From a virus: a stretch of DNA of 27,867 nt. The stretch's first letter is position 1; every line of letters starts with the position of its first letter. The notes under the pieces were generated by a model, which was given only the letters and a program-made list of their open reading frames with translations, was not told the origin of the DNA and searched no databases. This document shows, one piece after another, positions 1 through 27,838 of this stretch. The DNA lies in IMG/VR virus record IMGVR_UViG_3300032297_000024, positions 1-27,867 of that record. The stretch is one strand, 5' to 3'. The position numbers were made by a program, and so were the translations under genes.

Positions 1-44
1 CCTTGATTCAATTGTGTGAACGCATCAAATACAAATGACTGAAT
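1..44 (-). repeat. 44-bp exact match to 6638-6681 in the paralogous gene
   Basis: The first 44 bases of the window are identical to 6638-6681. The two stretches encode the same peptide, SPIQSFVFDAFTQLNQG or part of it, in the two giant paralogues. The flanking codons differ at many third positions. A perfect match of this length stands out against the otherwise diverged pair and suggests gene conversion or strong constraint. Confidence 0.85.
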
Positions 45-3000
45 TGGGCTCTTTAATGAAGGAGCATTACCGTCGACTAACGCACCGCCACCAGATCCGT
101 GGCCGTCTAGTCTTCTCATAGCCCATTCTTCTGGAATGTCAGCAGCCAGTGTAGGATAGACTTGTGTCTTTCCGAAGTACAATGTTGCGCCGTCACTTGA
201 AGAAATTGTAGGTCTATTTAAAACAACTTCATATGTTCCTGTTGTTATTTTTTGAACATGTGTTACCACACTTGCTGTGTTTAACGCATCTGGACTTAAT
301 CCGCTTGGCACAATTAATGCGTATATATCTTTGACAGGATCAGGAGTTGCATCTGGACCTTGTGTGATAATACTTGTAATGATGTCAATTCCATCGTTAA
401 TGCGAGTAGCAACTATTTCTCCGTGTACTAGACTAGGATTAATTACTTGTGTCTCTACTGAGTTAATGACATTAGTAATAGTTGTGTTAGCAATAATTTG
501 TAAAGATAAATCTTTTAAATAATTGATTGCACTAACTGTTTCTGTTTGTTCTCCAGGAATTAAAGTAGTAGCTCCATCCCAATAAGATAATCCTGCTTCA
601 ATACTTCGTTGATTGCCTCCAAATCGAGCATCTCCGGCAATAGCATCAATAATTAATCCAGTATCTCTATAACATAGCGGTTGATTATAAACAAAATAAT
701 TGTTATCAATGTAAGCAATAACTTCTGCTTGAATAAATTTTTTATTAGCTTGTAAAATTTTTGCAGCGTTAACGACATTTGGATCTGAAGACGGAGTTAT
801 TCCTAACGGAGCAGGGTCATCTGCTACAGTAGGACCGTTATTAATAATATCAGTAATAATAGAAATTTTGTCTATAGCAATACCAGCTTCTGTAATTGTT
901 CCACCAATCATATCAACTACTTGCGGTACAACACTTTGTTGAGGACTAATTGCTTGACCGCTAATAACTGATTGTACAATGTCGCTAATATAAGTGTATG
1001 CAGCAGTTACTTGAGGTATTTCGTTTGGTACAGCAGTAGAAGTAGTGTAGCTATAATAGTATACACCAGTCTGTACAGCCTGTCTATTGCCGCCATATAA
1101 TAAATCAATACTTACGCTATCGATCATATTTCCAATATCTTGAATGTACTTAGATTGGTCGTACTCAAATCTATCAGGATACTTTTGATCAATATATGCC
1201 ACTACTTCTGTTTGAATAAAGTCTCTATTAGCTATTAGCAATCTTGCCGCATCTGTATCGTTTATATTTGTACTAGATGTTACACTAATTGGAGATTTGT
1301 AAGGAACTATATCAGCACCGTTCCTAATGATGTTAGTAATTGTACTAACAATATCATAAATTTTAGCAGACTCTGTATAAGTTGCAGTATATGCAGCAAA
1401 TACCTGAGTAACAGTATTTTGATATGTTATTGCTGGAACATTCTGAATAACTTTTTGTGCCAAGTTTCCTAAGAAATCAAAGGCATCAATAGTTTCATTA
1501 ATTTCGTTTGGTATTGCAGTGTTGGTACTAAATGAATAGTAGTATACACCGCTTTGTACAGCTTGTCTATTGCCGCCATGTAACAGGTCAAAGCTGATAC
1601 TGTCAACCATATAGCCTACATCTCTATAGCATAATTCTTGATCGTAAACAAATCCAGGAGTCTTTGTAGATTCTACAAATGCAACAGCTTCTGCTTGAAT
1701 ATATTCTTTATTAGCCTGAAGAATATTGTAGGCACTAATAACATTAGTTAGAGTACTTGGAAGAATATTGTTTGGAACAATAATGTCTGACACACCGTCA
1801 GTTCCGTTACTTAAAATATCTGTAATTACAGAAAAATCATTAGCAATTAATGTTACTTCTGCAGAACTTGCAGAAGGTAAACTTGTATTTTGTGTAACAG
1901 TACTTTGATAACGAGGACCTGTAGTAATATTTCTTGCTAGTTTTTGTGCAAGAGTACTAACATAATTAATTGCATTAGTGGTAGTTGTTAATTCGTTAGC
2001 AATAGTACCAGTGTAACTACCTTGACTCCAATACTGTAATCCAGAAAAAGTAGCTTGACTGTTGCCGGGTGTTGGGTATAACAAATCAAGGGCAATAGCA
2101 TCAACAATTAATCCGCTATCTCTATAACACTTAGGTTTATCAAAACTAAATCCTGTTTTTATAGACTCAATAAAAGCAATTGTTTCGTTCTGAATAAACG
2201 ATCTATTTCCTTGTAACAAATCAACTGCTGCAAGTATGTCAGTTTCTGTACTTGCAGAAATTCCGTTAGGTATAATAATATCTGATACGCCTTCAGTTCC
2301 TCTATTAAGGATATCTAATATAACTCCAAAATCATCAGCAATAGTCTCAGCTTCTAACGAAGTTGCTGAAGTCCCAGAAAGAACTTGGCTAAATGTATTT
2401 TGATATCTAGTGCCTGTTGTCTTTGTAACAACTTGTTGCGCCAGTGTGCTGACATATTCAATAGCCCTAGTAGTTGTGCTAATTTCTCCAGGTACTGTGC
2501 CAACATATCCGTTTTGATTCCAGTATTGTAGGCCTGCAAAAGTACTTTGGCTTGAAGTATTGAATAATAAATCTTGTGAAATAGCGTCAACAATTAACCC
2601 AGTATCTCTAATACATTTGTTTTCGTTGTAGAAGAATCCGTTATAGGTAGTGTTTACATAAGCAACAATTTCATTTTGTAAAAATCTTTTGTTAGCCTGT
2701 AACAATAATTGTGCATTACGATATCCTTCATTTGCAGAATCATTAATTGCTTGACCAACAACAATAGTTCCTGTAGAAAGATGAACAGTTAATGTATATT
2801 GATTAGCTGTCCATGTACTTGTTCCAGCGGCTTCAGGCACCTGTACCGTTTGGTTAGGAATAAACATTGTTCCGTCAAATAACCAAGGTCCTGATTGATT
2901 GGTACAGTTTTGAATGTACGGTGAATAGTATAAGTCAATTGGATTTTCTAAGCTAGGAGGAAATGCTACTGCATAAGCGCCAGTAGTGTATGTACCTGCT

Positions 3001-3722
3001 CCGCCAGGAGCGTATCTCTCAACACTACCTCTTCTTAGGTTTAACATGTTCATTTGCGCGATATATACGCCGGAATTAACATGGAATAGGTCTAAATCTT
3101 TGTTTAACGGCTCAACAAATGTTGTTCTTAAGTCACTGCCTTTAACTGAGGTATAAGGTTTTAACGGGATTGGATTGTCTTCAAAGTAGTGTCCGGCTGC
3201 AACAATAATACTTGTACCTTCTTGGTAATAAGGACTACGAATTGCTCCACTAATTGTTCGGCAAGCCCTAGTAGAATCCATTGCTCTACCATCATTTGTA
3301 TCATCACCGTCCATTGTAACATAGAGGGTATTAGTAACAAATGGAAATGTACCTTTTGGATCTTCTCCTAGTACTCTAATTTTTCCGTTTAGTAGAGTAT
3401 CATTAGAAACTTCAAAATTACTAAAAGTTTTAGTTAAGGCAGATGGTCGTAGATTAATGTCTGCTTTATTATCGCCATCGACAGTAATTGGTGTAGTGTT
3501 ACCAGTTGCTTTAATTGTTTGATTTTCAAACTCTAGTTTGCCTAATGTGTTGTCAAATACTACTTTGTTATCGCCAACTTGTTTTAATGTATAGCCGGTG
3601 TCAGCAGACGGTGGCACACCTAGATTAGGCTGAGCCTGATTCAGTCCTAAATAATCCCACCTACTTTCTTTAAGCTCGGCTGGCGGAGTTACTTTTTTTC
3701 TATTACTCAGTAATCTTGGCAT
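1..3722 (-). CDS. Giant virion/fibre-like repeat protein, 3' part cut off by window edge
   Basis: An open frame runs leftwards from ATG at 3722 to the window edge without a stop (about 1,240 residues seen). It starts MPRLLSNRKK, 15 bp after the preceding gene. A segment at about 2,840-3,340 with LYVTMDGDDTNDGRAMD and FHVNSGVYIAQMNMLNLRRG looks like a right-handed beta-helix of the pectin-lyase-like type common in marine T4-like virion proteins. Five tandem repeats of about 160 residues follow, each with an 'ANKxFIQxExxAY' helix, an 'RDxGLIVDxIAxDLL' helix and a 'YQNTxTQ' end. The visible part ends in a block with GHGSGGGALVDGNAPS. It is a paralogue of the 2,171-residue protein encoded at 4135-10650, in the same domain order. 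A tail-fibre or particle-surface role is inferred from context; I see no enzymatic residues. The C-terminus is outside the window. Confidence 0.85.
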   Translation of the reverse strand, partial: MPRLLSNRKKVTPPAELKESRWDYLGLNQAQPNLGVPPSADTGYTLKQVGDNKVVFDNTLGKLEFENQTIKATGNTTPITVDGDNKADINLRPSALTKTFSNFEVSNDTLLNGKIRVLGEDPKGTFPFVTNTLYVTMDGDDTNDGRAMDSTRACRTISGAIRSPYYQEGTSIIVAAGHYFEDNPIPLKPYTSVKGSDLRTTFVEPLNKDLDLFHVNSGVYIAQMNMLNLRRGSVERYAPGGAGTYTTGAYAVAFPPSLENPIDLYYSPYIQNCTNQSGPWLFDGTMFIPNQTVQVPEAAGTSTWTANQYTLTVHLSTGTIVVGQAINDSANEGYRNAQLLLQANKRFLQNEIVAYVNTTYNGFFYNENKCIRDTGLIVDAISQDLLFNTSSQSTFAGLQYWNQNGYVGTVPGEISTTTRAIEYVSTLAQQVVTKTTGTRYQNTFSQVLSGTSATSLEAETIADDFGVILDILNRGTEGVSDIIIPNGISASTETDILAAVDLLQGNRSFIQNETIAFIESIKTGFSFDKPKCYRDSGLIVDAIALDLLYPTPGNSQATFSGLQYWSQGSYTGTIANELTTTTNAINYVSTLAQKLARNITTGPRYQSTVTQNTSLPSASSAEVTLIANDFSVITDILSNGTDGVSDIIVPNNILPSTLTNVISAYNILQANKEYIQAEAVAFVESTKTPGFVYDQELCYRDVGYMVDSISFDLLHGGNRQAVQSGVYYYSFSTNTAIPNEINETIDAFDFLGNLAQKVIQNVPAITYQNTVTQVFAAYTATYTESAKIYDIVSTITNIIRNGADIVPYKSPISVTSSTNINDTDAARLLIANRDFIQTEVVAYIDQKYPDRFEYDQSKYIQDIGNMIDSVSIDLLYGGNRQAVQTGVYYYSYTTSTAVPNEIPQVTAAYTYISDIVQSVISGQAISPQQSVVPQVVDMIGGTITEAGIAIDKISIITDIINNGPTVADDPAPLGITPSSDPNVVNAAKILQANKKFIQAEVIAYIDNNYFVYNQPLCYRDTGLIIDAIAGDARFGGNQRSIEAGLSYWDGATTLIPGEQTETVSAINYLKDLSLQIIANTTITNVINSVETQVINPSLVHGEIVATRINDGIDIITSIITQGPDATPDPVKDIYALIVPSGLSPDALNTASVVTHVQKITTGTYEVVLNRPTISSSDGATLYFGKTQVYPTLAADIPEEWAMRRLDGHGSGGGALVDGNAPSLKSPIQSFVFDAFTQLNQ
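350..2720 (-). repeat. Five tandem ~160-residue protein repeats
   Basis: Five units are spaced 480-495 bp apart; their 'ANKxFIQxE' motifs lie near 2695, 2215, 1720, 1240 and 750. Each unit reads roughly: Lxx(A/G)N(K/R)xFIQxExxAYxxxx, then FxYDxxxCxRDxGLIVDxIAxDLLxGGNxQ, then AGxxYWxxxxxxIPxExxxTxxAxxYxxxLxxxV, then YQxTxTQ, then a helix with IxxIIxNG. The repeats are diverged at DNA level, so the array is old, and the spacing is regular. Confidence 0.8.
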
Positions 3723-3737
3723 ATCAATCTCTACTTA

Positions 3738-4124
3738 TTATGTGTTAGCAGTTTCTAGAATACTTAAAACTAATTTTAATGTTCCTGTAGAATCTGCAAA
3801 TGCTCTAATACTATCTTGGCTTTCTAAAATCATCTTACCAGTAATTAAACTTGCAGAATCGTTAGGTGGGATTTCAAATCCTTTAACTAATTCTGTTGTG
3901 ATGTTAGGATCTTGAGCGTTGTTACCTTGGGCGTCAGGCAAGACTCTAAAGCGTCTGTGGTGACTAAAAGTAATAGTGTGGGCAGCATTTGCGTCCACAT
4001 TAGATACTTGTGCCATAAGAACAATGCTTGTAACGCCGATAGGAGCCACATAAACCGTAGAGGTGGTATTAGTGTCTAATGTCTTTGTTTTCGTTTTAAA
4101 TGTGTTTAATGGAATTAATGCCAT
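3738..4124 (-). CDS. Small beta-rich virion-associated protein (128 aa)
   Basis: This gene lies between the two giant fibre-like genes, with a 10-bp gap upstream and a 15-bp gap downstream, so all three are probably read as one message. A strong AAGGAG ribosome site precedes the ATG. The protein has no signal peptide or membrane segment and alternates short hydrophobic strands (STVYVAPIGVTSIVLMAQVS, TGTLKLVLSILE), as expected of a small beta-sandwich. Its motif order (STVYVAP, TSIVL, FEIPPNDSAS, ILESQDSIRAFA) parallels that of the 105-residue protein at 11558-11875, so the two look like paralogues. A decoration, adaptor or fibre-connector role is possible but is only inferred from position. 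Confidence 0.8.
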   Translation of the reverse strand: MALIPLNTFKTKTKTLDTNTTSTVYVAPIGVTSIVLMAQVSNVDANAAHTITFSHHRRFRVLPDAQGNNAQDPNITTELVKGFEIPPNDSASLITGKMILESQDSIRAFADSTGTLKLVLSILETANT

Positions 4125-4134
4125 TTATATCTCC

Positions 4135-7100
4135 TTATCCCCCAGCATCCGCTTCAACAGCAAGGATGAAAGGTGTCATCTCAGCAAATAAACTCTTTTG
4201 GAATGTTCTTCCTGATAATACACCAGTTGCCTGACTAATTACCAATCCAGGACCAATACGGAAGTCTCCGTTTTGATCAGTGGAAGTAAAGAACACCTTA
4301 CCATTATTTAACTGAACTGTTTCCTTGCTCTGATTTGGGTCTACTCGACCAACCTGAGGCAAGGCTCCGTATTGTGTTCCTGCTCCTACATACTCAAACA
4401 AGTATCCAGAAGCACTCATATAACTTCTTTGATAGAAATTAACTTTACATCCGTCGACAAATAACAACGGATTAGCTACATACTCCTCCATGGTAACAAG
4501 GTGATATGTTCCATCTTTAGTATAATATGTTTTTGCAGCTTCTACGCTTCTAAAGTTTCCTCCAGTAGCTAAGTCTGCTTGTAATGCATCAATAATTAAC
4601 CCAACATCTCTACGGCATTTTAATCTGTCGTATGTAAATCCGCCATACTCACTATCGATATAGGCAATGACTTCTGCTTTAATATAATCTCTATTTGCAT
4701 TAATTAAGTTATAAGCATTAACTACATTTGTAGAAGTTGATGCTGTTAAACTAATTGGTGTAACTGGCGTTATGCCCGGGCCGTTATTAATAATACTAGT
4801 AATTAAATCAATTCTTTCTGCGGCTGCATTTACTTCATCAATAGTACCAGGGTTAGAACTTACAGTCTGTGTTATCTGATTTTGATAGCTAGGGCTTGTA
4901 GGTGTTCCTGTAATAATGTCGCCAATAATAGATTTGATAAAATTATAAGCTGCGGTAGTCTGAGGAATCTCATTAGGTATTGCACTCACATCAGAACCAA
5001 AACTGTAATAGTAGCTACCAGCTTGTATACTTTGTCTATTACCGCTATGTATTAAATCAAATGCAACACAATCAACAATGTATCCTAAGTCTCGTTCGCA
5101 AGTATTTTGATCATAAGTAAAATCTGGATTGTTTGCATTAATCCATGAAATAGTTTGACTTTGAATACTTGATTTGGCTGCAAGCAATGCGTTGTATGCA
5201 TTAACAATTGTTGGAACACTGCTCACAGGTCCGTTAGGAACAATAGCATCAGAAGTATCTACTAGAACTCCTCCTAAAATATCTAATATGGTATTAAACA
5301 ATGTAGACACTGTGTTGTTGGTAGATCCATATCCAGTGACTACTGATACTGCTAAGTCTCTTGCGTAAGCAATTGCATTAGAAGTTGTAGTTAACTGACC
5401 CTCAATGCCGCCAGTTAGGCCAGATTGATTCCAATATTGAATACCTGCATATTGACTTTGAGTAAAGCCGTCATGCAATAAATCTAATGCAATACTATCA
5501 ACAATTAATCCAGTATCTCGTTCGCACTTTGCTTGGTCGTAAGTAAATGAATTATATATTGCATCAACATATCCAACTGTTTCATTCATTATGAATATTC
5601 TGTTTAGTTCTAACAGTGTAATTGCATCTTTTGCACCTATTGGAATTGTTCCAGTGGTTAGTACTGTTGGCGCACTTTGAGGACCTGATAAAATTACACC
5701 TGTTAAGATACTTAATTTGTCGTCAATAAATTCAGTAGCACCACTTCCTGCTGAATAAGACAAGTTAACAACTTGTGCTGTAGCTGTACTGTATGGAGAA
5801 TCTATTGTGGTATTAGAAATAACAGAATTAACTACTGAGTTCATAAAATTAATAGCATCAATAGTTTCGTTTTCCTGGCCTCTAATTTTACTAGCACCGG
5901 ATGCGTAAGGACTCGATGCTATCTCACTTGTTAGAACTGTATAGTAAGCGTTTCCACAAGCATACAAATTAAAATAATTTTCGTTGCCTGGTTCAGATCC
6001 AGTTGCAGTAATTGGATTGCTTAGTTGAATAGTTTGGTAACTGATATCAGTGATAATAGTATTTGAATTTAAATATCGTGTTCCTAGGCCATTATTATCC
6101 GCTTCGTTACCAAATTGGTCTCTAATGTATAAATTTTGTCCTATTGCAAATCCGGTAGTATCGATACCACTGATAGTATAACTACCGGTTGTTATTGTAC
6201 CAGTAGTATTAACTGCTGCTAAGAATCCAGGATACCCTTGTTCATTTTTATATGGAACAACATTTCCATCATAGTCATTGTATATATCAGGTGGAACTAC
6301 TTCCATCACTAATGCAATGTGTGGTCTGTCATTAGGGTCAGGAACAAATATACATACTTCTGATTTATTAGGGAAGAAGCCTTCTGGATAATTTTCACTG
6401 TATTCCCAAGAGTTTGTTAACTTATTGTAGAAAAAGCCCGATGGATTATATACAGTTCCTCCGAACTCTCGAGGACCGTACCCTTCTGCTACTAGACATA
6501 AATCTCCAAAGTTAGCATTAGAGTTAGTAATTGAACAAATGCCTCCGGACTCACAACGAACTGCAATATCGCAGAAAATCGTAAACACAGAAACTAGCTG
6601 TGCATACCCTCTGTTAATAATGTGAATTCCAGTTCCGCCTTGATTCAATTGTGTGAACGCATCAAATACAAATGACTGAATAGGAGAATTTAATGAAGGT
6701 GCATTGCCGTCAACTAGAGCACCGCCACCTGCGCCATGCGGGTCTATTCGACGATCTGCAAAACCATTTTCTTCCCACTCGCCTGGAATATTTTTATCTT
6801 CAACTGGATATACTGTTGTCTGACCAAAATAAACAATATCGTTATTTGCACTAGCAATAGTTGATGTGCTTAGAGTAACAATAAATTGTGTTAGCGTAGA
6901 ATCTGTGCTAAACGGAGTATACTCTGGGCCGTTTTCAATGATAGTAGAAATGGCATTAAAGTTAGATTCGACTAAAGGAGTAGCAAGAGCTCCGCCTTGT
7001 AATAATGGATTAATTAATTGTGTAACAACTGTTCCAGTTTGATAACTGTAGGTTACAGGATTATTAGCAATGATATCTAATGCAACATTTTTTGCATATC

Positions 7101-10100
7101 TAATAGCATTAGCAGTCTCTTTTAACTGTCCTGGAATTACACTTACTGCTCCATTCCAATAACTTTTACCTGCGATTAATGTGTTAACATTTGATCGATT
7201 AATAATATCATTTGAAATAGCATCGACAATTAATCCAACATCTCGGTAGCATAAATCTTCGTTGTAAGTGAATACATACGGGTCAATAAATGTCTTGTCA
7301 ACATACGCAATTGTTTCTGCTTGAATAAAATTTCTATTTGCTTTTAATAAATCAAATGCTCTAACAAGATTAGTACTAGTAGAATATGTTAATCCTACAG
7401 AAGTTAGTTCAGGCGCAACACTAGGACCGTTCCTAATAATGTCTGTTATTAAACTTAAATTATTAACAATACTATCTGCTTCTGCTTTTGTTGCAGGAGG
7501 CAAATTAATATTTTGTGTGCTAGTTGATTGATACGGATTTGTAATTTTTGTACCTTGTACAACTTTATCTACCACAAATTTTAAGTATTTGTAGGCAGCA
7601 GTAGTTTGTGGAATTTCATTTACAAGAACAGTGCTTGTTGAGTTATATCCAAAGTAAGATACTCCGGCCTGAATACTTTGTCTATTGCCTCCACGAAGTA
7701 AATCAACTGCGATACAATCAACAATAAATCCTGCATCTCTTAAACATTTTTCAGCGTCATAAGAAAATCCAATTGGTTTATTAGCTTCTACCCAAGCAAT
7801 TGTTTCAGCTTGAATAAAAGATTTATTTGCAACTAGGGAATTGTATGCATTTATAATTTGACCGTCAGTGCTGGCATCGCCATTTCCTAAAATTAGATCG
7901 CTAACTCCGGCTGTTCCAGTGCTTATAATATTAATGATTAAATCACAATTAGCCACAACACTTTCTACAACCGATGCAGAAGCTGTTCCAGTTGTTACTG
8001 TATTTTGTTGAACAGGAACTTGGAGAGGACTAATAGCATTGCCTTGGATAATCTGTTCAACTATATCTCGAAGATAGGTAAACGCACCTATTGTAGTTGG
8101 CTCTTCTCCGGGAATATTTGTTGCTGCCTGATTCCAATACTGCAATCCTGAGAAGGCAGAATTAGAGTTGCTTTCATATATTAAGTCTATTGCTAAACTA
8201 TCTACAATAATACCAGTATCTCTATAACATTTAGCTGCATTGTAAATAAAATCTAATTTAGTAAAAGTAGTATCAACAAATGCAACGACTTCATGTTGTA
8301 TAAATTCTTTATTGTCAACTAGACTTTGATAACTGTTTAATGTTCCTGGAACAGTAGTTGGTACACCGCTGTTAGATTGAACAATAACTGATGTATCTGT
8401 ACCTAAGTTAATAATATCAGTTAATGCTAGGACATTCTTTTCTATTATTTCTGCAGAAGCATTGTTACCAATTGTTAATGTATTAATATATTGAGTAACT
8501 GTACTTTGATATGGCTCTAATAAAGATTTTCCTAAGATTACATTTCTTGCTACATTGGCTAGATAGTTAAATGCCGCAATAGTTTCTTCTTGTTCTGTTG
8601 GAATTAAAGAAGTTACTCCGTCCCAATATTGGTTTCCTGCAATAACAGATTGTTCGTTACCGCCATACAGTAAATCTGTCGCTAGAGCATCTATTGCCAG
8701 CCCTACATTTGCAAAAAATATTGATTTATCGTAGGTAAACCCAGTTAGCGGCTGACCTACATAAGTTTGGTTAACAAAACTAACTACTTCATTCTGCAAA
8801 AATCCTCTATTAGCATTTAGTAATGCGGCAGCGTTTTCATAACTTACATTATTAAGAATTATGTCGTTTAATAATTGCACTAACTCAGTAACTCTAGGAG
8901 CAACTACTGCACCTCCAGTTAATGCTAAATCAAAAGTTTGAGATTCTACATTTCCAAAAGTAACTGATACAGGAAGGTTATCAACAACTTGATTTATAAC
9001 TGATGCTAAATGAGTAAACGCTGCTACGGTAGCGGTAGTTGCATTGTCTGAATACTGTCGTCCGGCGCTGACAATTTTAGTGTTGCCGCCTAATATAGTA
9101 TCGTGTGCAATTGCATCAATAATTACTCCTGCATCTCGTCTAAATTTAACTCTATCATATGTTAGAGTAGAAAAATTTAAATCAACATACGCTACTGCTT
9201 CTGATTGTAAGAAAGATTTATTTGATACAATTAAAGATTTAGCCGATTGAAAGTCGGAATCAGGATTAAGAATGTCTTCAACTACTGCTACTGGGATATC
9301 TGGATTAATTAAAATTCCAGCACCATTTACAGCCATGCCAATTTCAAGCATCTGAGTAGTAGGAATTTCTAGTACATTAACAAGTAATGTAGTCGTCCCT
9401 GATACATAAGTCGAAGTTGCAACTACTTGAGGAACTTGCACAGTTTGATTAGGCACAAACATTGTGCCATCGTACAGCCATGGACCAGTTTGATTGGTAC
9501 AGTTTTGTATGTAAGGACTATGAAAAATATCAATAGGATTATCTAGTCTAGGAGGAAATGCAACACAATAAGCGCCAGTTGTATATGTTCCTGCTCCGCC
9601 GGGTGCGTAACGAGTAACTTCCCCTCGGCGAAGATTTAACATTGTCATTTGAGCAATATATACACCAGAGTTTACATGGAATAGATCAACTCCGTTATTA
9701 AGTGGTTCTATAAATGTAGTTCTCAAACTATCTCCCATTACAGTTGTATAGGGTTTTAGTTGGATAGGATTGTCTTCAAAATATTTTCCGGCTGCAACTT
9801 TAATAATAGTTCCTTCTTTATAGAAAGGACTGTTAGTAGCACCTGTGATAGTACGACATGCTCTACTTGAATCCATTGCACGGCCGTCATTATCATCGTT
9901 GCCATTTTCGTTAACATACAATACATTATTAACAACAGGAAATGTTCCAATCGGGCTACCGCCATAGACACGAATGTCTCCGTTAATAGTAACAGTCTTA
10001 TTGATTGTTCTTTCAAGTAATGGGATGTCTGGAAAGAATTGAATATCAGTGCCTGTGGCAATTGTGTCAATTCTCTTTGTATAAATGTCTTGTATGTAGC

Positions 10101-10650
10101 CAGATAGCCAGCCGCTTTCTGTTGAGCCTAGACTGAACTCTGATACTACGCTGGTATTGGTTACAAAGTAAGTAAGTGTACCAGTTGTAACAACTGTTCC
10201 GGTTCCGTTAAAAGGAATAAAATCTGATTTAATATCAGATCCGAATATAACAGTGTCAGTAGTTGTGTTATCACCTAAGACGATATCGCCGTCTGCTGTG
10301 ATGTTTCCTGTAACATGAAGATTACCGTCGATAAGTGTATCGCCGATAAGTGTAATTGTTTCTTCGCCGCCTGGTTGAAATACTAGCGGGCCATAAAGTG
10401 TTTCGATTAAACTAGTACCAGTTGTACTAGAGCTGATGTTTACTAGACCGATTGTGCCAGTATTGGCAATAATCTTAAAGGCATTAATTGTGCCGTTAAC
10501 ATCTAGTTCGTATTTAGGAACACTATTTCGAATACCAATCTTTTTGGCACCGACATCCCAGAAAATTAAATCTCCGTCAATTGCTAATGGAATCCCGTCG
10601 CGATTCAGGTTAGCAGCAAGTAACGGACCGGTAATACGACCTACGGCCAT
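4135..10650 (-). CDS. Giant virion/fibre-like repeat protein (2,171 aa)
   Basis: This is the largest gene here. It begins MAVGRITGPLLAANLNRDG behind a GAGGAG ribosome site. Domain order by residue: 1-160, an N-terminal beta region with the LIDGNLHVTGNITADGDI pattern of T4-like fibre proteins; about 240-405, a beta-helix-like segment (LYVNENGNDDNDGRAMD, FHVNSGVYIAQMTMLNLRRG); about 465-1250, five repeats of the 160-residue type; about 1285-1400, a Gly/Cys-containing block (GAGGGALVDGNAPS, CDIAVRCESGGIC); about 1670-2040, three more repeats; and a C-terminal region with FFTSTDQNGDFRIGPG, a motif common at the ends of cyanophage-type virion structural proteins. The truncated gene at the left edge is its paralogue. 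A long fibre or other particle-surface protein is the best reading; the sequence gives no receptor. Confidence 0.9.
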   Translation of the reverse strand: MAVGRITGPLLAANLNRDGIPLAIDGDLIFWDVGAKKIGIRNSVPKYELDVNGTINAFKIIANTGTIGLVNISSSTTGTSLIETLYGPLVFQPGGEETITLIGDTLIDGNLHVTGNITADGDIVLGDNTTTDTVIFGSDIKSDFIPFNGTGTVVTTGTLTYFVTNTSVVSEFSLGSTESGWLSGYIQDIYTKRIDTIATGTDIQFFPDIPLLERTINKTVTINGDIRVYGGSPIGTFPVVNNVLYVNENGNDDNDGRAMDSSRACRTITGATNSPFYKEGTIIKVAAGKYFEDNPIQLKPYTTVMGDSLRTTFIEPLNNGVDLFHVNSGVYIAQMTMLNLRRGEVTRYAPGGAGTYTTGAYCVAFPPRLDNPIDIFHSPYIQNCTNQTGPWLYDGTMFVPNQTVQVPQVVATSTYVSGTTTLLVNVLEIPTTQMLEIGMAVNGAGILINPDIPVAVVEDILNPDSDFQSAKSLIVSNKSFLQSEAVAYVDLNFSTLTYDRVKFRRDAGVIIDAIAHDTILGGNTKIVSAGRQYSDNATTATVAAFTHLASVINQVVDNLPVSVTFGNVESQTFDLALTGGAVVAPRVTELVQLLNDIILNNVSYENAAALLNANRGFLQNEVVSFVNQTYVGQPLTGFTYDKSIFFANVGLAIDALATDLLYGGNEQSVIAGNQYWDGVTSLIPTEQEETIAAFNYLANVARNVILGKSLLEPYQSTVTQYINTLTIGNNASAEIIEKNVLALTDIINLGTDTSVIVQSNSGVPTTVPGTLNSYQSLVDNKEFIQHEVVAFVDTTFTKLDFIYNAAKCYRDTGIIVDSLAIDLIYESNSNSAFSGLQYWNQAATNIPGEEPTTIGAFTYLRDIVEQIIQGNAISPLQVPVQQNTVTTGTASASVVESVVANCDLIINIISTGTAGVSDLILGNGDASTDGQIINAYNSLVANKSFIQAETIAWVEANKPIGFSYDAEKCLRDAGFIVDCIAVDLLRGGNRQSIQAGVSYFGYNSTSTVLVNEIPQTTAAYKYLKFVVDKVVQGTKITNPYQSTSTQNINLPPATKAEADSIVNNLSLITDIIRNGPSVAPELTSVGLTYSTSTNLVRAFDLLKANRNFIQAETIAYVDKTFIDPYVFTYNEDLCYRDVGLIVDAISNDIINRSNVNTLIAGKSYWNGAVSVIPGQLKETANAIRYAKNVALDIIANNPVTYSYQTGTVVTQLINPLLQGGALATPLVESNFNAISTIIENGPEYTPFSTDSTLTQFIVTLSTSTIASANNDIVYFGQTTVYPVEDKNIPGEWEENGFADRRIDPHGAGGGALVDGNAPSLNSPIQSFVFDAFTQLNQGGTGIHIINRGYAQLVSVFTIFCDIAVRCESGGICSITNSNANFGDLCLVAEGYGPREFGGTVYNPSGFFYNKLTNSWEYSENYPEGFFPNKSEVCIFVPDPNDRPHIALVMEVVPPDIYNDYDGNVVPYKNEQGYPGFLAAVNTTGTITTGSYTISGIDTTGFAIGQNLYIRDQFGNEADNNGLGTRYLNSNTIITDISYQTIQLSNPITATGSEPGNENYFNLYACGNAYYTVLTSEIASSPYASGASKIRGQENETIDAINFMNSVVNSVISNTTIDSPYSTATAQVVNLSYSAGSGATEFIDDKLSILTGVILSGPQSAPTVLTTGTIPIGAKDAITLLELNRIFIMNETVGYVDAIYNSFTYDQAKCERDTGLIVDSIALDLLHDGFTQSQYAGIQYWNQSGLTGGIEGQLTTTSNAIAYARDLAVSVVTGYGSTNNTVSTLFNTILDILGGVLVDTSDAIVPNGPVSSVPTIVNAYNALLAAKSSIQSQTISWINANNPDFTYDQNTCERDLGYIVDCVAFDLIHSGNRQSIQAGSYYYSFGSDVSAIPNEIPQTTAAYNFIKSIIGDIITGTPTSPSYQNQITQTVSSNPGTIDEVNAAAERIDLITSIINNGPGITPVTPISLTASTSTNVVNAYNLINANRDYIKAEVIAYIDSEYGGFTYDRLKCRRDVGLIIDALQADLATGGNFRSVEAAKTYYTKDGTYHLVTMEEYVANPLLFVDGCKVNFYQRSYMSASGYLFEYVGAGTQYGALPQVGRVDPNQSKETVQLNNGKVFFTSTDQNGDFRIGPGLVISQATGVLSGRTFQKSLFAEMTPFILAVEADAGG
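4530..5640 (-). repeat. Three further ~160-residue repeats, second array
   Basis: Three more units of the same family lie after the glycine-rich block, with motif starts near 5605, 5170 and 4690 (LNRIFIMNE, AAKSSIQSQ, ANRDYIKAE). A partial unit with only the second half (GQENETIDAINFMNS, SPYSTATAQVVNL) precedes them at about 5670-5910. The last unit runs into the C-terminal region after EAAKTYYTKDG. Confidence 0.75.
6900..9250 (-). repeat. Five tandem ~160-residue repeats, first array
   Basis: The 'NKxFIQxE' motifs of the five units lie near 9215, 8815, 8310, 7825 and 7340, so the spacing is about 400, 505, 485 and 485 bp. The first two units are the most diverged: they read SNKSFLQSE and ANRGFLQNE and lack the Cys-x-Arg-Asp that the other units have before the 'GLIVD' helix (RRDAGVIID and FANVGLAID instead). 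The unit family is the same as in the left-edge paralogue. Confidence 0.8.
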
Positions 10651-23087: not shown

Positions 23088-23954
23088 ATGATTCCTACCC
23101 AAAAAGCAGCCCACAATCCTCTAGCTAATTTTATGAGGCAACCTAAGATCTATATCAAGATCCCTAGTGGAGGTGAGTTTTGGCCAGCCGGTAGCATTGA
23201 CATTCCAGAGAACGGAGAGTTCCCTGTGTACTCTATGACTGCCAAAGACGAGCTAATGTTAAAAGTTCCCGATGCTTTAATGAATGGACAAGCAGTAGTT
23301 GAAGTTATTCAGCACTGTATGCCTAACATTAAAAATGCTTGGTTTGTTCCTAACTTAGACTTAGATGTTATTTTAATTGCTATTCGTATTGCTACCTACG
23401 GTGAAATAATGACATTACCTGTTAACCTAGGTGAAGATAAAGAATTTGAGTATCAGTTAAACTTAAACATATTGCTAGATCAATTACAATCTAAAATTAT
23501 TTGGGAAACTGCGGTTCCTATCAGTCCTGAGTTAACAATTCATGTTAAGCCTATTAACTATAAAGTAATGACCGAAAGCGCATTAAAAACTTTTGAAACA
23601 CAAAAACTTCTAGAAACTGCATCTAGTACAATGCCAGAAGAAGATAAGTTAAAAACTTTTAACGAGAGCTTTCAGAAATTAAATGATATCACTATTGGTA
23701 TTGTAAATCAATCTGTGTATGCTATCGAAACAAGCGACGGTGCAACGGACAATGCCAAGCATATTAAAGAATTTATGGAAAATGCTGATAAAGACATCTT
23801 TGATGCAGTTAGGAATCACATTGACGAGCTTAGAAAGCACAACAGTCTAGGTCCAATGAACATTGAAGTAACTCCAGAAATGAGAGAGCAAGGTATTGAA
23901 GCTGAGAAGATCGAAGTACCGTTAGTATTTGATCCTACAGTTTTTTTCGCATAA
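23088..23954 (+). CDS. Baseplate hub assembly protein, T4 gp26/gp51-type (288 aa)
   Basis: N-terminal sequence NPLANFMRQPKIYIKIPSGG, then EFWPAGSIDIPENGEFPVYS, MTAKDELMLKVPDALMNGQA, then IQHCMPNIKNAWFVPNLDLD and IAIRIATYGEIM is the pattern of the T4_baseplate protein family (gp26/gp51 relatives) widespread in T4-like phages. These proteins help form the central hub of the baseplate. The second half is helical (KLNDITIGIVNQSVYAIE) and the end, FDPTVFFA, is characteristic of such proteins. I cannot decide between the gp26 and gp51 names from sequence alone. It lies on the strand opposite to its neighbours behind its own TATAAATA promoter and CGGAG ribosome site. Confidence 0.88.
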   Translation: MIPTQKAAHNPLANFMRQPKIYIKIPSGGEFWPAGSIDIPENGEFPVYSMTAKDELMLKVPDALMNGQAVVEVIQHCMPNIKNAWFVPNLDLDVILIAIRIATYGEIMTLPVNLGEDKEFEYQLNLNILLDQLQSKIIWETAVPISPELTIHVKPINYKVMTESALKTFETQKLLETASSTMPEEDKLKTFNESFQKLNDITIGIVNQSVYAIETSDGATDNAKHIKEFMENADKDIFDAVRNHIDELRKHNSLGPMNIEVTPEMREQGIEAEKIEVPLVFDPTVFFA

Positions 23955-27409: not shown

Positions 27410-27838
27410 TTATATTTTTGATTTTATATGAGAGCCATGTACACGGACTTGTATATGTCCGTTATAGTATTCATCGGATTCTAATACTTTGCGGTCGAAT
27501 TGTTCGCGGGCCTCAATGTAAGATGTTTCTGCTTTAGATTTACAATAATAAAGTATTTCTCTTGAGAAGTTATCTTTGCCTAGTGATGTGATATCTGCTG
27601 TTAAATTAGGACTGGACCCGTAATACTCCTGCCAGTCGCTGTCGATTTTGCTTCGAATCTTCTTTTTCTTCTTGGTGCCGTTCTTCAACTTTACAGTCTT
27701 GTAGGTCGTTTTACTAAATTTTGCTAGTTTTTTGCCGATGTATTGGCGCCCCGAAGCTATGTTGGTAATGCAATATACAAAACCAACACAGTCCTCGGGT
27801 AATTCATTTACAACTTGTCCTTGATAAGTCCAGGTCAT
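27410..27838 (-). CDS. GIY-YIG nuclease, SegE-like (142 aa)
   Basis: The GIY-YIG core is seen as GFVYCITN (19-26) followed by GRQYIGKK (30-37), with the second Tyr and Gly of the YIG motif at 33 and 35. A Lys/Arg-rich segment follows (TVKLKNGTKKKKKIRSK), then SDWQEYYGSSPNL, then LGKDNFSREILYYC and an acidic residue in the helix after it (SYIEAREQFD). This order fits the SegE-type GIY-YIG endonucleases of T4-like phages, which act as free-standing homing nucleases. The canonical G-I-Y is replaced by F-V-Y, as in that subfamily. There is no DNA-binding domain beyond the basic segment. Whether it still moves is unknown. Confidence 0.82.
   Translation of the reverse strand: MTWTYQGQVVNELPEDCVGFVYCITNIASGRQYIGKKLAKFSKTTYKTVKLKNGTKKKKKIRSKIDSDWQEYYGSSPNLTADITSLGKDNFSREILYYCKSKAETSYIEAREQFDRKVLESDEYYNGHIQVRVHGSHIKSKI

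Follow-up and report, generated by a model that had tools for sequence, protein, structure and literature searches.

Phycobiliprotein-like repeat arrays in a pair of giant tail-fibre-type proteins from a T4-like jumbo phage

To which fold do the long arrays of a repeat of about 160 residues belong that fill two adjacent giant phage genes, and what kind of protein do these genes encode? The window analysed here, that is, the whole 27,867-nucleotide (27.9-kb) stretch of IMG/VR record IMGVR_UViG_3300032297_000024, is a fragment of an aquatic T4-like jumbo phage, in which genes for the portal, the prohead protease, gp23 and a baseplate-hub protein can be recognised. Its gp23 is about 70% identical to that of the 350-470-kb phages Vibrio 2.275, Phosso and 121Q. 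The baseplate-hub-type gene (23088-23954, plus strand; phrog_150) is the sole large gene standing alone on the plus strand, and a 142-aa protein (27410-27838, minus strand) matches phrog_447 and homing-endonuclease families. The genes that concern us are the following:

4135..10650, minus strand: copy A (P0001), giant fibre-type protein of 2,171 aa; open reading frame, tail-fibre families phrog_5342/4527, invariant architecture in relatives
3738..4124, minus strand: P0003, small gene between the copies, 128 aa; phrog_1276
3..3722, minus strand: copy B (P0002), paralogue truncated at the contig end to 1,240 aa; open reading frame, relatives

A preliminary description of this DNA had proposed two giant paralogues built on these repeats, and both reading frames were confirmed. 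The proteins align over 1,193 columns (P0001 216-1337 with P0002 105-1240) with 43% identity, and an HMM of the unit (about 160 aa), whose seeds were drawn from these same two proteins, gives 9 matches in P0001 and 5 in P0002 with i-Evalues of 1e-17 to 1e-67. The same genes are found on a second contig, IMGVR_UViG_3300032295_000707 (66.7 kb; L164), where A is 97% identical and B 99% identical over the shared part. Between P0001 and its 97%-identical homologue, 341 codons differ synonymously and 65 non-synonymously. This excess, together with the recurrence of the repeat arrays in more than 70 contigs, argues that the arrays are not a product of chance. L164 also supplies the end of the left-edge copy, which the preliminary description had proposed to read: copy B is complete there at 3,391 aa, with 19 repeat matches and the same C-terminus as A. 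Thus, the left-edge copy, and not the 2,171-residue protein as first thought, is the larger of the two. Downstream of copy B, L164:3-2894 (minus strand) holds a 587-aa gene that has copy B's N-terminal domain (NB) and an open reading frame of at least 964 aa with GGVGIGG-type repeats, which means that the fibre cluster extends past the window.

A module scan of the relatives yields a shared plan: an N-terminal domain (NA or NB), a first part of a beta-helix (H1), n units, a second part (H2) followed by H2b, a half unit, m units, another half unit and the C-terminus. The 64 distinct complete proteins, which range from 984 to 4,060 aa, have 0-17 units at site 1 and 0-12 full units at site 2. The two copies of the window can be mapped as follows:

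10006..10650, minus strand: copy A, N-terminal domain NA, residues 1-215 (module scan)
9451..9966, minus strand: copy A, beta-helix part 1 (H1), about residues 229-400; homologous to P-SSM2_293 57-183
6892..9249, minus strand: copy A, array 1 inside the beta-helix, five units (unit HMM; fold match of unit 1)
8842-9249, 8374-8838, 7882-8340, 7378-7854 and 6892-7365, minus strand: the units of copy A array 1; C-x-R-D in units 3-5
6391..6732, minus strand: copy A, beta-helix part 2 (H2), residues 1307-1420, holding the glycine-rich block; homologous to P-SSM2_293 189-280
5905..6390, minus strand: copy A, H2b, beta-rich, residues 1421-1582 (module scan and predicted model)
4486..5901, minus strand: copy A, array 2, made of a second-half, a partial, a full and a first-half unit (unit HMM; model)
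5653-5901, 5302-5628, 4735-5208 and 4486-4725, minus strand: the units of copy A array 2; C-x-R-D in the last three
4138..4500, minus strand: copy A, residues 2051-2171, conserved C-terminal domain; shares 40% identity with the C-terminus of P-SSM2_293
3378..3722, minus strand: copy B, N-terminal domain NB, common to the next gene downstream in L164 (module scan)
2793..3377, minus strand: copy B, beta-helix part 1 (P-SSM2_293 comparison, module scan)
333..2720, minus strand: copy B, array 1, five units (unit HMM); C-x-R-D in 4 of 5
2247-2720, 1755-2234, 1269-1739, 789-1253 and 333-776, minus strand: the units of copy B (unit HMM)
3..110, minus strand: copy B, first stretch of beta-helix part 2, truncated at the contig end (P-SSM2_293 comparison)

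The order first proposed, a beta-helix segment, five repeats and a glycine-rich block, is seen in both copies. The glycine-rich stretch itself, however, is not a separate block; it is the point at which the interrupted beta-helix resumes. P0001 does have additional units and a C-terminus beyond it, but the three clean repeats described earlier turn out to be the mixture of half, partial and full units listed above.

Sequence comparison identifies both arrays most plausibly as insertions, each at a fixed site, the first interrupting the beta-helix and the second preceding the C-terminal domain, since cyanophage relatives exist that lack them. Indeed, the tail-fibre-like protein P-SSM2_293 (617 aa) and its S-SRM01 homologue (619 aa) possess H1, H2 and the C-terminus and no repeats; the H1 of P-SSM2_293 runs to residue 183 and its H2 begins at 189. 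B23 gp322 has units at site 2 only, and at site 1 an ACG-2014f protein has a unit that has diverged. Two beta-helix templates, pectin methylesterase and the phage 7-7-1 tail fibre, align with the structure model across the insertion (model residues ~17-1178), although its second half is of low confidence. In three loci (L057, L068 and L083) the repeat protein is spread over two open reading frames (1,509 + 1,193 aa in L083), perhaps through frameshifts or real splits. The jumbo contigs L173, L175 and L176 encode additional giants at other loci; these share the beta-helix and C-terminal modules described above and contain few repeats.

The fibre class of these proteins, already suspected in the preliminary description, is indicated by their PHROG families, by the neighbouring genes and by the virion peptides of a relative. 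Copy A matches the tail-fibre profiles phrog_5342 and phrog_4527 at 4.5e-82 and 2.1e-76, and copy B at 1.8e-51 and 5.5e-55; 290 cyanophage records match the protein family. A homologue of P0003 adjoins the copy-A-type gene in cyanophages P-SSM2, S-SRM01, B23 and ACG-2014f. S-SZBM1_208, a protein of 6,619 aa in which we find six units of the kind described here, was detected in purified virions by mass spectrometry, with 71 peptides (PMC9146016). A and B are very probably fibre or baseplate-linked proteins of the virion, and it is likely that both genes encode giant tail-fibre-type proteins of the T4-like jumbo phage, with a presumed place in the particle. The S-PM2 record (AJ630128, 168556-173383; L184) places at least 16 tRNA features within the giant repeat gene S-PM2p218. 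ARAGORN detects none there, and its tRNA predictions all lie upstream of the gene (locus 6317-8237), so that the annotation is apparently displaced. Separately, the S-CREM2 virion has a long tail fibre of 4,971 aa (PMC10665884).

The unit had been expected to be predominantly helical, and helices are what the structure models predict. The model used for the comparisons covers P0001 224-1414 with a mean pLDDT of 73.8, and a second model has a pLDDT of 78, both of moderate confidence. With VIA-align, the best 31 PDB matches of the predicted unit 1 of A are all phycobiliproteins or the bilin domain of ApcE, with Z scores of 13.6-16.9, a range to be judged knowing that helical models may reach Z 13 by chance. 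The low-rmsd matches, which start near chain residue 30, superpose 125-133 residues at about 2 A with 11-17% identity; after the phycobiliproteins come globin-coupled sensors (Z 11.8) and haemoglobins (about 6.7). The link is weaker with the second model (Z 7-8.7), for which a plain Foldseek search of the PDB gave nothing below 1e-3 and did not show it.

Because of this chance level, evidence was sought separately from sequence. A profile of the unit searched against 177,635 PDB sequences has a phycocyanin as its best match (E 0.0063) and CpcA as its second (E 0.59), with C-x-R-D in register. The Pfam family Phycobilisome (PF00502) is matched by 19 of 88 units (best E 7.5e-4), and the next family by 2. 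The whole giant proteins match nothing in Pfam (E up to 1) or NCBIfam (E up to 0.1), and phmmer with P0001 finds nothing among the PDB sequences. Aligned with hhalign, a profile of 187 units and one of 44 phycobiliproteins from cyanobacterial genomes score 40.7, against at most 20.7 in 100 column shuffles and 16.7 with a reversed profile. Adding the cyanophage units raises the score to 48.2 (probability 93), at 13% identity. In addition, a phycobiliprotein HMM scores above 10 bits in 165 of 481 units and in none of 2,477 decoy ORFs (other phage ORFs). The profile match starts at column 58-59 of the phycobiliprotein alignment, past the N-terminal helices (the region of the X-Y hairpin, through which light-harvesting phycobiliproteins form their alpha-beta assemblies). 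The unit's second half also gave weak matches to vinculin (E about 1), which were discarded.

In phycobiliproteins, the cysteine of a C-x-R-D motif carries the bilin, which the arginine and the aspartate hold. In the 481 phage units, otherwise about 30% identical, these three columns are conserved at 98, 98 and 99%; exactly one cysteine is present in 381 units, and the motif is kept in many distant cyanophage units. In the window, it is intact at 6 of 8 positions in A and 4 of 5 in B, the cysteine being absent from the remaining two and one. Unit 1 of A is the best structural match, yet it has no cysteine, so the register of this residue rests on the sequence alignment. The triad kept in most units leads us to infer that they would bind a bilin, which the host or, in certain relatives, a phage heme oxygenase and bilin reductase would supply.

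The genes for such a supply are present in a few relatives. Two jumbo contigs, G008 and G010 (L204 and L205), encode in a row, and in identical order, an Hsp20-like protein, a protein labelled ClpS-like from a reading of its translation, a heme oxygenase and a PcyA-like bilin reductase; G008 also encodes a 19-unit protein, and G010 likewise carries repeats. The window and G001, the near-identical contig of 66.7 kb, contain neither a bilin reductase nor a heme oxygenase; both are fragments. Bilin genes are absent from 11 of the 13 large relatives (contigs above 100 kb), and no CpeS lyase was found in 22 relatives. When contigs above 100 kb are picked by their bilin reductase alone, 10 of 12 carry the repeats; so do all six contigs of at least 100 kb picked by their portal, so that shared lineage may explain the co-occurrence with the reductase, which is not independent evidence. 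In P-SSM2 (L009:10668-13686), PSSM2_291, which encodes a heme oxygenase, is located two genes upstream of PSSM2_293, the homologue without repeats. As for the host, no psbA is found in 16 relatives, and a scan of genome contigs gave only short ones, in MAGs of unrelated kinds (bacterial, archaeal and Synechococcus). Pieces of the fibre family occur in MAGs of Neisseriaceae, Chitinophagaceae, Rhodobacteraceae, Sphingobacteriales, Euryarchaeota and Synechococcus (L186-L191); these are probably mis-binned phage contigs.

Could an unrelated helical repeat have come by chance to a globin-like arrangement and a C-x-R-D motif? The identities are low (11-17% in the structural matches, 13% in hhalign), and helical repeats can attain Z 13 fortuitously. 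However, separate searches based on sequence only agree with one another, far above shuffles, decoys and other families, and the motif aligns in register, which makes convergence highly improbable. We are thus confident that the helical unit is a homologue of the phycobiliproteins (bilin-binding globins). Bilin binding is a matter separate from membership of this superfamily. The units may descend from phycobiliproteins or bilin-binding globins and serve a purely structural role, as rigid helical spacers or glycan-binding modules in which C-x-R-D contributes to folding or packing. Units without cysteine persist in the arrays, the number of units varies freely, as would befit a spacer, most of the large relatives lack bilin genes, and the 22 relatives scanned for CpeS have no such lyase. 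Against this stand the cysteine, arginine and aspartate, which are among the most conserved positions of an otherwise divergent unit and persist in distant cyanophages, and the finding that the BBAG-type globins BBAG-1 and BBAG-3 take up bilins without lyases (PMC10151467). We regard a purely structural role as evenly balanced with its negation, and a covalently attached bilin, which the triad suggests, as possible, if somewhat doubtful.

The two adjacent copies had also been suggested as possible heteromeric fibres, or interchangeable ones, that widen the host range. Their tail-fibre annotation would suit this, as would the arrangement as tandem paralogues, with a P0003-like small gene between them, in 20 of 78 loci; many relatives, however, have a single copy. 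Moreover, the N-terminal domains of A and B differ, and NB recurs at the N-terminus of the gene that follows downstream and, in single-copy phages, of the second gene. Length and unit order are conserved in A and shuffled in B. Copy A is 2,171-2,202 aa long in the closest paired group (1,919 in one other relative), and all seven of its testable units have their closest counterpart at the equivalent position in other phages; copy B, in contrast, varies from 2,437 to 4,060 aa, and its units often match other positions or the other site. Taken together, this makes heteromeric or interchangeable fibres unlikely. Since their N-terminal domains differ and NB is common to the neighbouring gene, A and B would rather dock at different sites, A as an arm of fixed length and B as a variable one.

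The protein family itself is already known, from PHROG tail-fibre families and cyanophage records. The giant proteins of cyanophages (phrog_5342, phrog_4527 and phrog_701; S-SZBM1_208, S-ShM2_093, S-PM2p218 and B23 gp322) share the unit and partly also the beta-helix, the C-terminal modules and the small neighbouring gene; the annotations seen do not state the phycobiliprotein nature of the unit. The type found in the window differs from them in its occurrence in jumbo phages with Rak2/121Q-like capsid proteins, in its arrays at both sites and in its often tandem copies. The P-SSM2_293/S-SRM01 protein shares both beta-helix halves, the C-terminus and the small neighbour, but is uninterrupted. 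Cyanobacterial phycobiliproteins (PF00502; phycocyanin, phycoerythrin and the ApcE bilin domain) are alike in predicted fold, profile and C-x-R-D, whereas the phage units stand in tandem inside a fibre-type protein and match only after the N-terminal helices. The BBAGs, compared here by their description (PMC10151467), are likewise phycobiliprotein paralogues outside light harvesting, with CXRD in groups 1 and 3, but are single-domain cellular proteins encoded beside pre-PcyA genes, in clusters with heme oxygenase, Fe-S or V4R genes. The heme oxygenase and bilin reductase of some repeat-carrying relatives recall the phage hemO-pcyA/pcyX and pebS cassettes described, as far as the available portions of these articles go, in PMC11480375 and PMC13198022. 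Those portions name no phage protein as bilin target; in that of PMC11480375, only a phytochrome or a BBAG is suggested and the purpose of the cassette is left open. In the open-access literature, which leaves subscription journals and most preprints outside, no earlier report was found of the phycobiliprotein nature of the unit, of the two-site insertion plan or of its spread among jumbo phages.

The outcome that the preliminary description named as a refutation did arise, since the unit matches a non-fibre domain, that of phycobiliproteins; but this domain lies within a fibre-type protein, so that the fibre reading is extended and not removed. Leaving bilin binding aside, each giant is probably a fibre-type protein with phycobiliprotein-homologous units. 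Each would be a beta-helix fibre into which two arrays of tandem phycobiliprotein-fold domains are inserted; the arrays would form long arms, with unit number determining how far each extends, fixed in copy A and variable in copy B, the latter docked through its own N-terminal domain.

The intact attachment motif suggests that virus particles may carry bilin pigments. A light function of the units is very unlikely, and equally improbable are pigmented fibres whose covalent bilins, in some phages products of their own heme oxygenase and bilin reductase, are active in the virion, for example as a photoreceptor for the light-dependent adsorption reported for several marine cyanomyoviruses. According to a review (PMC2984593), bilin genes are of unclear benefit to Prochlorococcus phages, cyanomyoviruses lack several T4 fibre genes and adsorption is light-dependent in several of them. 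Pigmented fibres, if real, would link three puzzles: the bilin genes that phages carry even where their hosts lack standard phycobilisomes, the need of some cyanophages for light in adsorption and the replacement of the T4 fibre genes missing from cyanomyoviruses. The units are a concrete phage-encoded candidate target for phage-made bilins, and even without a chromophore, a beta-helix fibre with tandem globin-fold domains inserted into it is unusual in design. Many giant structural proteins of unknown make-up are encoded by cyanophages and their jumbo-phage relatives; the phycobiliprotein link, with the bilin triad intact, provides these proteins with a fold, a candidate ligand and a probable evolutionary origin.
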